NCBI RefSeq assembly: GCF_001514065.1
Contig: NZ_KQ948429.1
Coordinates: 372,001 to 436,000, forward strand
Length of the DNA: 64,000 nucleotides
Direction of reading: 5' to 3'
DNA from: Streptomyces antibioticus
GTDB lineage: Bacteria; Actinomycetota; Actinomycetes; Streptomycetales; Streptomycetaceae
The notes under the pieces were generated by a model. That model was not told where the DNA came from. It did no database searches and saw nothing but the letters and a program-made list of their open reading frames with translations. A program made the position numbers and the translations under genes. Position 1 is the first letter of the stretch, and each line of letters begins with the position of its first letter. Below, piece by piece: positions 11,027 through 13,552 of the stretch.

Positions 11027-11059
11027 GCGTCCAAGCACACCAGATACCGGCCAGAAATT

Positions 11060-11079
11060 CTTGTGAACGAATTCACAAG
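11060..11079. promoter_or_regulatory. CRP/FNR-type palindrome between ltrA and pflB
   Basis: CTTGTGAA-CGAA-TTCACAAG, an 8-bp perfect inverted repeat that contains TGTGA-N6-TCACA (11062-11077), the classic CRP-family consensus. The binding protein is unknown; Crp or an FNR-like regulator is inferred. Confidence 0.65.
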
Positions 11080-11152
11080 CGGTCAGGGGTCCAAAGGCCT
11101 GGAGAAAGCGCCAGGTCAGCCGAACCGGCCGCTTCCCGGGCCGCGCGCTGTC

Positions 11153-11166
11153 GGGACGTTGGTCCC
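11153..11166. promoter_or_regulatory. DosR/DevR-like box upstream of pflB
   Basis: GGGAC-GTTG-GTCCC. The half-sites match the DosR core half-sites; the central four bases differ at two positions from TWWA. Located about 90 bp upstream of the pflB start. Confidence 0.5.
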
Positions 11167-11183
11167 GCAGATCGGGACCAACG
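11157..11183. promoter_or_regulatory. Overlapping inverted repeat upstream of pflB
   Basis: Perfect 11-bp arms CGTTGGTCCCG (11157-11167) and CGGGACCAACG (11173-11183) with a 5-nt spacer. It shares one half with the GGGAC-N4-GTCCC box and adds a second GGGAC half-site. It could be a composite operator or an RNA hairpin in the leader. Confidence 0.55.
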
Positions 11184-11254
11184 CGGCCCGCGGAGCCGCC
11201 CGCGCGGGCGTGCAATGGAGCCGTACCGACGAAGCGATGTGGAAGGTGCGGGCC

Positions 11255-13552
11255 ATGACTGCCACCCCTGCGGAAACCACGACCGCCACTCTTACCGAGG
11301 AGACGGCCCAGCACACCCCGGCGCCTACGGACGCCTGGGCCGGCTTCCGCGGCGGCCTGTGGCGCGACGCCATCTCCGTCCGCGACTTCGTCCAGAGCAA
11401 CTACGCCCCCTACGAGGGCGACGCCTCGTTCCTCGCCGGCCCCACCGAGCGCACCACCAAGGTCTGGAACAAGCTTCTCGCGATGTTCCCCGAGGAGATC
11501 GCGCGCGGCGTCCACGACATCGACGTCAGCACCCCGTCCCGCATCGACGCCTTCGCGCCCGGCTGGATCGACCCCGACCTCGACCTGATCGTCGGCCTCC
11601 AGACCGACGCCCCGCTCAAGCGCGCCATCATGCCCAACGGCGGCTGGCGCATGGTCGAGAACGCCCTGGACGCCTACGGGTACGAAGCCGACCCCGCCGT
11701 CCGGGAGATCTACACCAAGTTCCGCAAGACCCACAACGACGGCGTCTTCGACGCCTACACCCCCGAGATCCGCGCCTGCCGCTCCTCCGGCATCATCACC
11801 GGCCTGCCCGACGCCTACGGCCGCGGCCGCATCATCGGCGACTACCGCCGTGTCGCCCTCTACGGCGTCGACCGGCTCATCGTCGCGAAGCGAGCGGACA
11901 AAAGCGCTCTCGAAGTCGAGTGGGCGAGTGCGGAGGTGATCCAGGAACGCGAGGAAGTCGCCGAGCAGATCCGCGCCCTCGAAGAACTCAAGGCCATGGC
12001 CCTCTCCTACGGCCACGACATCTCCGGCCCCGCCCGCACCGGCCGCGAGGCCGTCCAGTGGCTGTACTTCGCCTACCTCGCGGCCGTCAAGGAGCAGAAC
12101 GGCGCCGCCATGTCGATCGGCCGCATCGACGCCTTCCTCGACATCTACCTCCAGCGGGACATCGAACGCGGCCTGCTCACCGAGACCGAGGCGCAGGAAC
12201 TCATCGACGACTTCGTCATCAAGCTCCGCATCGTGCGCTTCCTGCGCACCCCCGACTACAACGAGGGCTTCTCCGGCGATCCCACCTGGGTCACCTGGTC
12301 CATGGCGGGCCTCGGCGAGGACGGGCGCCCCCTGGTCACCCGCACCACCTTCCGCGCCCTCAACACCCTCTACAACCTCGGCCCCGCCCCCGAACCCAAC
12401 CTCACCGTCTTCTGGTCCCCGCGCCTGCCCGAGGCGTTCAAGTCGTACGTCGCCCAGGTCGCCATCGACACCAGCGCCCTGCAGTTCGAGTCCGACGACC
12501 TGATGCGCCCCAAGTACGGCGACGACACCGCCATCGCCTGCTGCGTCTCCGCGATGGCCATGGGCAAGCAGATGCAGTTCTTCGGTGCCCGCGTGAACGT
12601 CGCCAAGGCCCTGCTGTACGCCATCAACGGCGGCCGCGACGAGGTCTCCGGCAAGCCGGTCGTCGAGGGCTTCGAGCCGATCACCGACGAGTACCTCGAC
12701 TACGACACCGTCCTCGCGCGCTACGACGCCATGCTCGGCTGGCTCGCGAAGACCTACGTCCACGCGCTCAACGTCATCCACTACATGCACGACAAGTACG
12801 CCTACGAGCGCCTCGAAATGGCCCTGCACGACCGGAAGATCCTGCGCACCATGGCGTGCGGCATCGCCGGCCTGTCGGTCGCCGCCGACTCTCTGTCCGC
12901 GATCCGGCACGCACGCGTGAAGGTCGTCCGGGACGAAACGGGCCTCGCCGTCGACTACGTCGTCGAGGGCGACTACCCGGCGTACGGCAACAACGACGAC
13001 CGGGCCGACGAACTCGCCCGCTGGATCGTCCACGAGTTCATGGAGAAGGTCCGCCGCCACCCGACGTACCGCGACGCCGTGCACACCCAGTCGGTGCTGA
13101 CGATCACCTCGAACGTCGTCTACGGCAAGAAGACCGGCCACACCCCCGACGGCCGCCGCGCGGGCGCCCCCTTCGCGCCCGGAGCCAACCCCATGAACGG
13201 CCGCGACGAGCACGGGTACATCGCCTCGGCGCTCTCCGTCGCCAAGCTCCCCTACGACGACGCGGAGGACGGCATCTCGCTGACCAACACCATCACCCCG
13301 GATGCCCTGGGCCGCGCCCCCGAGGAGCGCGTCGCCAACCTCTCCGGCGTCCTGGACGGCTACATGGCGAGCGGTGGCTTCCACATGAACGTGAACGTGC
13401 TCGACAAGGCGACCCTCGAGGACGCGATGGAGCACCCCGAGATGTACCCGCAACTGACCATCCGGGTCTCCGGATACGCGGTCAACTTCATCCGCCTCAC
13501 GCGCGAGCAGCAACTCGACGTCATCAACCGCACCTTCCACGGATCGTTGTAA
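11255..13552 (+). CDS. pflB: Pyruvate formate-lyase (formate acetyltransferase)
   Basis: 765 residues, the length of E. coli PflB, and alignable from [24 protein letters not shown] N-terminus to the C-terminus. Catalytic Cys pair in [19 protein letters not shown] (about 427/428) and the glycyl-radical loop RVSGYAVNF near residue 740 are intact. It cleaves pyruvate with CoA to acetyl-CoA and formate without oxidation, and the radical is destroyed by oxygen. Start at 11255: GGAAGG at 11241-11246, 8 nt spacing. A second in-frame ATG lies at 11237. The activase gene follows by 12 bp. Finding a full PFL system in a sporulating aerobe suggests use in oxygen-poor mycelium. No formate channel or dehydrogenase is in the window. 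Confidence 0.96.

Follow-up and report, generated by a model that had tools for sequence, protein, structure and literature searches.

A predicted composite Rex and OsdR control region before the pyruvate formate-lyase operon of Streptomyces antibioticus

Streptomyces are treated as obligate aerobes, and S. coelicolor reportedly survives extended anaerobic stress, as van Keulen is said to have described in 2007. How would such organisms govern pyruvate formate-lyase (PFL), an enzyme of fermentation? A 64,000-nucleotide stretch of the S. antibioticus genome (contig NZ_KQ948429.1, positions 372,001 to 436,000; hereafter the window, numbered from its first letter) carries the PFL genes pflB and pflA. 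A preliminary description of this DNA had proposed combined energy and hypoxia/nitric oxide (NO) control of the pair through CRP/FNR-type and DosR-like sites, possibly shared with the divergent gene ltrA. Our analysis of the 228 bp intergenic region between ltrA (minus strand) and pflB-pflA (11027–11254) points to a related answer. This region is probably a composite control region for Rex and OsdR, predicted to turn the fermentation operon on only when respiration fails. Its elements and the two genes are as follows.

11060–11079, no strand: predicted Rex operator, CTTGTGAACGAATTCACAAG, that is CTTGTGAA-CGAA-TTCACAAG, exact for TTGTGAAN4TTCACAA
11087–11100, no strand: box 1, OsdR/DevR-like, GGGTCCAAAGGCCT, beginning 26 bp past the first base of the operator, at a position conserved in Rex-bearing loci
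11112–11118, plus strand: CAGGTCA, conserved columns in the distal module of both pflB and adhE
11153–11166, no strand: box 2, OsdR/DevR-like, GGGACGTTGGTCCC, beginning 92 bp past the first base of the operator, at an equivalent position in relatives
11157–11183, no strand: computed 11 bp inverted repeat whose arms come from the right side of box 2 and the left side of box 3
11174–11187, plus strand: box 3, half-site GGGACCAAnGC in conserved columns, its centre 21 bp from that of box 2
11210–11219, plus strand: GTGCAATGGA, candidate pflB core-promoter element, inferred from conserved columns
11255–13552, plus strand: pflB, formate C-acetyltransferase (glycyl radical enzyme), 765 amino acids, TIGR01255 at 1146.1 bits against a cut-off of 994.2
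13565–14401, plus strand: pflA, PFL-activating radical SAM enzyme, TIGR02493 at 281.6 bits against a cut-off of 231.75, and PF04055

The pflB gene starts with the ATG at 11255, with GGAAGG located 8 nt upstream, and its translation carries the IACCVSAM and C-terminal RVSGYAV motifs. Scanned in its proper frame against NCBIfam only, it exceeds the TIGR01255 equivalog cut-off and is adjoined by the activase gene, as is characteristic of a pyruvate formate-lyase. The pair is thus intact, as the preliminary description held, with both proteins above their NCBIfam cut-offs. Its view that pflBA is unexpected in Streptomyces applies in a relative sense only, pflB being present in 109 of 295 genus genomes (116 matches at E ≤1e-50). 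The closest named pflB among the matches listed was that of S. actuosus VRA1 (88%). In the window no stop interrupts the pflB frame as far as 11063, but the region upstream was rejected as coding sequence because the open frames of several relatives (758–763 amino acids) end near the start codon, and because the linker within it is near random (see below).

We interpret the palindrome at 11060–11079 as most likely an operator of Rex, the repressor that senses NADH/NAD+. It is a full palindrome with 8 bp arms (11060–11067 and 11072–11079) and a 4 nt spacer. The Rex pattern TTGTGAA-N4-TTCACAA is exact at 11061–11078, which is its sole exact occurrence in the whole 10.1 Mb genome. Allowing up to two mismatches, 12 places were found in the genome versus two for the reversed pattern. 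The window holds one match at up to three mismatches, where 0.21 are expected. These 12 near matches include sequences identical to five footprinted S. avermitilis Rex operators (rex, cydA1, atpI, nuoA1 and wblE). Six of the 11 matches other than the pflB site sit at genes or sequences known as Rex targets, and hemA, cydA, NADH dehydrogenase and nuoA, named by reading of translations, adjoin near matches; five of the 11 (L002, L008 and L010–L012) carry no gene assignment. It is this site set, with its five footprinted Streptomyces operators, together with the exact match to the stricter pattern that supports the predicted Rex operator. Published Rex sites include TGTGAACNNNTTCACA of S. coelicolor (PMC5355995) and TTGTGAAWWWWTTCACAA of S. 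aureus (PMC2883068). The 36 Rex motifs counted in S. avermitilis, as given in the available part of that study, all have 1–3 mismatches (PMC5355995), so the pflB site surpasses every one of these in its agreement with the consensus. According to the available text on S. aureus, Rex binds best at sites without deviation from the consensus, and both pflB and adhE are targets (PMC2883068).

The distribution of this site was determined across 110 pflB loci, a set from which one second copy (G254) and five fragments were left out. These were divided by pflA identity (>70%), or by pflB identity for loci in which no pflA was identified, into clade A (46 loci, including the window) and clade B (64 loci). 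A tree of 150 proteins agrees with the split. It included 24 of 80 named loci, and 12 rows were dropped (six duplicates and six without a usable frame). Clade A (87% in the Shimodaira–Hasegawa-like approximate likelihood ratio test, SH-aLRT) joins a clade of 18 rows, mostly Micrococcales (98%). A Rex site with at most one mismatch precedes pflB in 23 of the 46 clade-A loci and in none of the 64 clade-B loci, and on the tree this label requires at least five changes. Among the 80 named loci listed, seven carry a Rex-like site at this threshold (four Streptomyces, two Cellulosimicrobium and one Isoptericola). S. actuosus VRA1 and S. lasiicapitis are named Streptomyces with a clade-A pflB and this operator. 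A class-wide sample of 296 genomes contained 28 with pflB, 17 of these from other genera; the best Rex-like sites of those 17 carry 5–7 mismatches.

The preliminary description had assigned the palindrome to the CRP/FNR type, and TGTGA-N6-TCACA is indeed exact at 11062–11077, one of 10 such places in the genome versus two for the reversed pattern. Streptomyces Crp (cAMP receptor protein) recognizes a GTG-N6-type palindrome. The predicted S. coelicolor OsdR targets, in the available part of that work, include Crp-like genes (PMC5069765). A Crp site here, with Rex either not involved or sharing the site, is nevertheless improbable. TGTGA-N6-TCACA is contained within the Rex pattern, and the Rex-specific outer T/A and inner AA/TT are kept without mismatch in 20 of 46 clade-A loci. 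Moreover, the three of the 10 exact places that were examined lie at pflB, cydA and nuoA, the latter two being identical in sequence to footprinted Rex operators. Combined energy and hypoxia/NO control thus remains consistent with the pattern of Rex and OsdR-like sites, while the CRP/FNR identity gives way to Rex, for which the pattern is stricter and footprinted operators are kin.

Genes for both predicted regulators, Rex and a DevR/DevS-like (OsdR/OsdK) pair, are encoded elsewhere in the same genome. The Rex gene (L003) is the open reading frame before hemA (NF003992, 393 bits against a cut-off of 226). A genome search for DosR/OsdR, as the preliminary description had suggested, returned a DevR-like regulator (L138) whose best PDB match is M. 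tuberculosis DevR (3c3w, 269 bits), followed by VraR (149 bits). The adjoining kinase has Pfam GAF and HisKA_3 domains, and its first GAF domain best matches DevS-type sensors (157–178 bits). Two OsdR-type boxes lie upstream of the regulator gene, and one lies upstream of narK elsewhere in the genome. A second similar DevR-like regulator, L139, shows 62% to the query.

The DosR-like boxes fit predicted OsdR/DevR sites. S. coelicolor OsdR is the DevR counterpart and is described in the available text as binding AGGGCCGATCGGCCCT-type sites (PMC5069765). The fit is argued from box conservation, from the DevR/DevS-like pair in the genome and from the box of a relative. Box 2 of locus L031 differs from the SCO5979 site at just one of 16 bases, and OsdR shifted the SCO5978–SCO5979 region in an electrophoretic mobility shift assay (PMC5069765). 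Scored with a matrix built from 25 published OsdR table sites, box 2 reaches up to 14.9 in relatives. Genome-wide, GGGACN4GTCCC occurs 29 times versus 13 for the reversed pattern. The exact OsdR-type box was found at −210 to −40 in 44 of 64 clade-B loci, versus 0–8 of 64 for seven altered patterns; at −900 to −400 the same OsdR-type pattern was found in five. How widely pflBA and these boxes are kept together, a question raised in the preliminary description, differs by clade among the 110 loci, with the Rex site confined to clade A and the exact box frequent in clade B. The perfect TGTGA-N6-TCACA, the GGGAC box and the 11 bp repeat with a further half-site were all located within the divergent region as that description claimed. 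The arms of the repeat (11157–11167 and 11173–11183) enclose a 5 nt loop, and the extra GGGAC half-site is at 11174–11178.

Operator and boxes are held at near-fixed spacing. This was measured in 28 operator-bearing Streptomyces pflB loci chosen irrespective of boxes (23 of the 110, L153 and four of the 80 named loci). In 25 of the 28, the distance from the operator start to the start of box 1 is 26 bp; it is 27 bp in two and 30 bp in one. For box 2 the offset is 92 bp in 22 loci, 93 bp in two, 94 bp in one and 83–85 bp in three. Of the 22 non-redundant loci that remain with L041 and Cellulosimicrobium set aside, 19 have a consensus-like box 2 precisely 92 bp from the operator start. Mean pairwise identity of the 30 bp linker is 0.33, versus 0.305 for random sequence of the same composition; the operator, boxes, CAGGTCA and GTGCAATGGA show identities of 0.62–0.86 over 27 loci. 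The Cellulosimicrobium loci L198 and L208 have a one-mismatch operator with a box at 93 and 91 bp, respectively, and box 1 is absent.

The same arrangement recurs before adhE, a predicted second target. The operator-N9-box composite was found at 32 places in 21 of the 295 genus genomes, with none for the reversed pattern and 1 in 392 for an operator-N8-box control. These comprise 19 places before pflB (two assigned by coordinates only), 12 before adhE and one relic. The AdhE identity draws on L273, whose N-terminal half matches NF010378 at 695 bits, where the cut-off for a full-length protein is 951; elsewhere the name rests on matching N-termini and upstream alignment, and the L272 frame is shifted as printed. 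Across the 12 adhE loci and L181, 10 of the 13 have their best box-2 position at 92–94 bp and the other three at 85 bp; the 26 bp spacing was built into this search and the 92–94 bp spacing was not. GGTGTCGAATTGAG, similar to GTGCAATGGA, stands before adhE.

A mechanism can be proposed on this basis. In air, Rex with NAD+ would occupy 11060–11079 and OsdR would be unphosphorylated, leaving pflBA silent. Such silence makes sense because oxygen would destroy the glycyl radical. Under hypoxia or NO, OsdK would phosphorylate OsdR. OsdR~P would then bind boxes 2 and 3, a tandem ahead of the pflB core promoter with a centre-to-centre distance of 21 bp, and it would probably bind box 1 as well. In M. 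tuberculosis, paired DevR sites have a similar centre spacing. Accumulation of NADH would cause Rex to leave its operator, such that expression would need both OsdR activation (low oxygen or NO) and Rex release (high NADH). PFL would then convert pyruvate to acetyl-CoA and formate with no NADH made. We infer binding, the signs of regulation, the AND logic and the promoter position from sequence facts. If correct, a doubly gated set of pflBA and adhE would be a concrete answer to the anaerobic survival of Streptomyces, and the role of Rex in the genus would extend from respiration to fermentation. The pattern hints at a regulated programme of fermentation in organisms that are supposed to be strictly aerobic.

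Several observations weigh against this mechanism. Half of the clade-A pflB loci are without the Rex site. An exact OsdR-type box is uncommon in clade A (5 of 46 loci); tolerating one mismatch gives 32 of 46, versus 4–23 of 46 for altered patterns. In the window, box 2 scores 9.0 (shuffled 99th percentile 6.9), under all 25 published sites (11.1–18.6), while box 1 (1.3; shuffled 95th percentile 1.06) and box 3 (−2.1, equivalent to no full-box score) are poor. A lone box is at chance level, with two GGGMCN4GKCCC matches found in the window and 2.09 expected. Rex operators known so far are found within or close to promoters, or past the transcription start, and the present one is a long way upstream of the inferred core promoter; the mechanism does not account for Rex action from ~90 bp upstream of the activator boxes. 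Formate exit and NAD+ regeneration are also unclear in this genome, there being no match to the formate channel family FocA/NirC (PF01226), which the preliminary description had proposed to look for, or to an AdhE C-terminal query. The former model matched in 3 of 14 control genomes; the latter search was made without a positive control. Given neither match, the PFL products would most simply yield acetate and ATP here, and strains that add AdhE could regenerate NAD+.

The low scores of two of the three boxes and the chance-level count in the window are what would be seen if the boxes were chance GC-rich palindromes and the 11 bp inverted repeat an RNA hairpin. We consider this scarcely credible, as box positions are conserved across diverged sequence. 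The perfect repeat is not kept in aligned relatives, and the hairpin reading was rejected on this ground. The significance of the boxes would lie in conservation among relatives and not in lone occurrence.

The position of the operator requires further consideration. We guess from the conserved GTGCAATGGA that pflB transcription may start near 11224, which would place the operator ~150 bp upstream; a simple scan for a sigma-70-type promoter found nothing in either the distal or the proximal part. Streptomyces Rex operators, in the available account, overlap the promoter or stand downstream of the start (PMC5355995). Either a second promoter or long-range action is thus needed. As a tentative proposal, a stereotyped Rex-OsdR element (26 and ~92 bp, with a sequence-free linker) may define a pflBA/adhE fermentation regulon in Streptomyces that reaches Cellulosimicrobium, in which the proteins could form one phased complex and Rex could shut the OsdR-driven promoter remotely by a loop or contact. 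This would constitute an oxygen/NO and NADH logic gate of a kind we have not seen described for Rex, and the near-fixed spacing leads to a sharp prediction of long-range repression.

Alternatively, two separate promoters might be present: Rex would control the distal one, together with box 1 and CAGGTCA, and OsdR would activate the proximal one at boxes 2 and 3, without cross-talk and with a spacing inherited and not selected. That Streptomyces Rex operators usually overlap a promoter (PMC5355995, as far as its available text goes) agrees with this. So do 18 of the 23 Rex-less clade-A loci, those not preceded by an adhE-like gene. By eye in the alignment, most of the 18 lack the distal part but have elements resembling box 2, box 3 and CAATG, and several carry a terminator-like hairpin where the distal part would be. 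We regard two independent promoters as doubtful, however, since box 2 is kept at exactly 92 bp in most non-redundant loci across a near-random linker, the two Cellulosimicrobium loci hold 91 and 93 bp without box 1, and the sigma-70-type scan was empty in both parts. A random-sequence linker of constant length favors long-range action over a second promoter, although the data do not decide between them.

The gene on the other side of the control region was examined as a possible partner.

9788–11026, minus strand: ltrA, divergent neighbour, PF06772 at 341 bits

Just 33 bp separate the assumed ltrA start codon from the palindrome, so the operator could serve ltrA and not pflB. A further point for this is locus L265 (genome G033, no pflB match), where an ltrA-like sequence, a perfect Rex operator and box 1 are kept. 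We rate an ltrA operator as very improbable, because the operator holds the same place before pflB with narK, a C4-dicarboxylate transporter gene or another gene on its far side, and it is also found before adhE. The gene is directly divergent from pflB in only 5 of 46 clade-A loci, and starts 1.8–4.1 kb upstream in seven more; flanks of only ~1.5 kb were available for L028–L057, where farther copies would escape. We therefore rejected ltrA as a general partner, leaving little support for the regulon role suggested for it in the preliminary description; it is apparently a lineage-specific neighbour. In L265 CAGGTC is also kept beside the operator, around position 1501, and next come the small gene and the mscL-like sequence that follow pflBA in the window. 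Apparently the operon was lost from this locus and its operator stayed on as a relic.

Four known systems resemble parts of the predicted Rex/OsdR region. The Streptomyces Rex regulon shares the operator pattern, the five footprinted operators recurring exactly here and the location of rex beside hemA; in contrast, the targets named in its available description are respiratory, developmental or other, with no pyruvate formate-lyase, and the window operator differs in being far upstream and paired with OsdR-like boxes (PMC5355995). In S. aureus, the same two fermentation genes, pflBA and adhE, carry Rex sites, but these lie in or a few bp from SigA-like promoters, and no DevR-type boxes are seen in the available text, unlike the two-part, near-fixed arrangement found here. 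Dual control of pflB and adhE by Rex and a second anaerobic system, possibly SrrAB, is likewise described for S. aureus, with a different second regulator and no fixed spacing described in that part of the source (PMC2883068). The S. coelicolor OsdR/OsdK (DevR/DevS) dormancy regulon has the same box pattern, and its targets (universal stress proteins, pyruvate phosphate dikinase, a nitrate transporter and nitrate reductase) resemble pflB neighbourhoods; however, neither pflB nor adhE is among the entries of its Table 1, and the available text mentions no pairing with Rex (PMC5069765). Among the open-licence papers listed in a literature search, none reports Streptomyces pflB or adhE under Rex or OsdR.

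Gene neighbourhoods differ between the clades, with families named from one scanned representative each. Within the stretches examined, 25 of the 46 clade-A loci have narK upstream of pflB (14 of the 23 Rex-bearing loci and 11 of the 23 Rex-less ones), and one (L039) has it downstream. A C4-dicarboxylate transporter gene is directly upstream in four clade-A loci, all Rex-bearing. In five Rex-less clade-A loci (L044, L046, L083, L094 and L109), pflB directly follows an adhE-like gene in an apparent operon; no Rex site at up to two mismatches was found before these adhE-pflB pairs in the stretch examined, a flank of ~1.5 kb for L044 and L046. A membrane-protein-like gene lies downstream of pflA, ~3.3 kb after the pflB start, in 23 clade-A loci (e.g. 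L059); its representative had no NCBIfam match. Clade-B pflB is accompanied by genes for universal stress proteins in 39 loci (one in clade A; Pfam of one representative), carbamate kinase in 13, a DevR-like regulator in 13, pyruvate phosphate dikinase in 10, an adhE-like product in eight, a DevS-like kinase in seven, phosphoketolase in six and arginine deiminase in four. Clade-B pflBA (L068–L137) sits in islands with such genes, each present in part of the loci. An NCBIfam scan of the clade-B DevR-like homologue gave only NarL- and MadR-type matches, under cut-off.

Some further sites were noted. A second exact box in the window, GGGACCAAAGTCCC at 5915–5928, lies ~25–38 bp before a small open reading frame (likely start 5953) and is at chance frequency. 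The palindrome TGATCGATCA is conserved between box 3 and GTGCAATGGA in many clade-A promoters (L035–L067) and is absent from the window. Locus L087 (G266), with ltrA divergent, has a two-mismatch Rex-like site at −86 from pflB, much nearer the start, and L219 (Isoptericola sp. AK164) has a one-mismatch site at −20 without the composite arrangement. The pflB gene itself has decayed in some strains, being in two pieces in G106 (G106:C6) and interrupted by an internal TAG in G248 (G248:C49). Two copies with identical scores occur in G254:C1, at 202644 and 11335951, near both chromosome ends, as terminal repeats would give.

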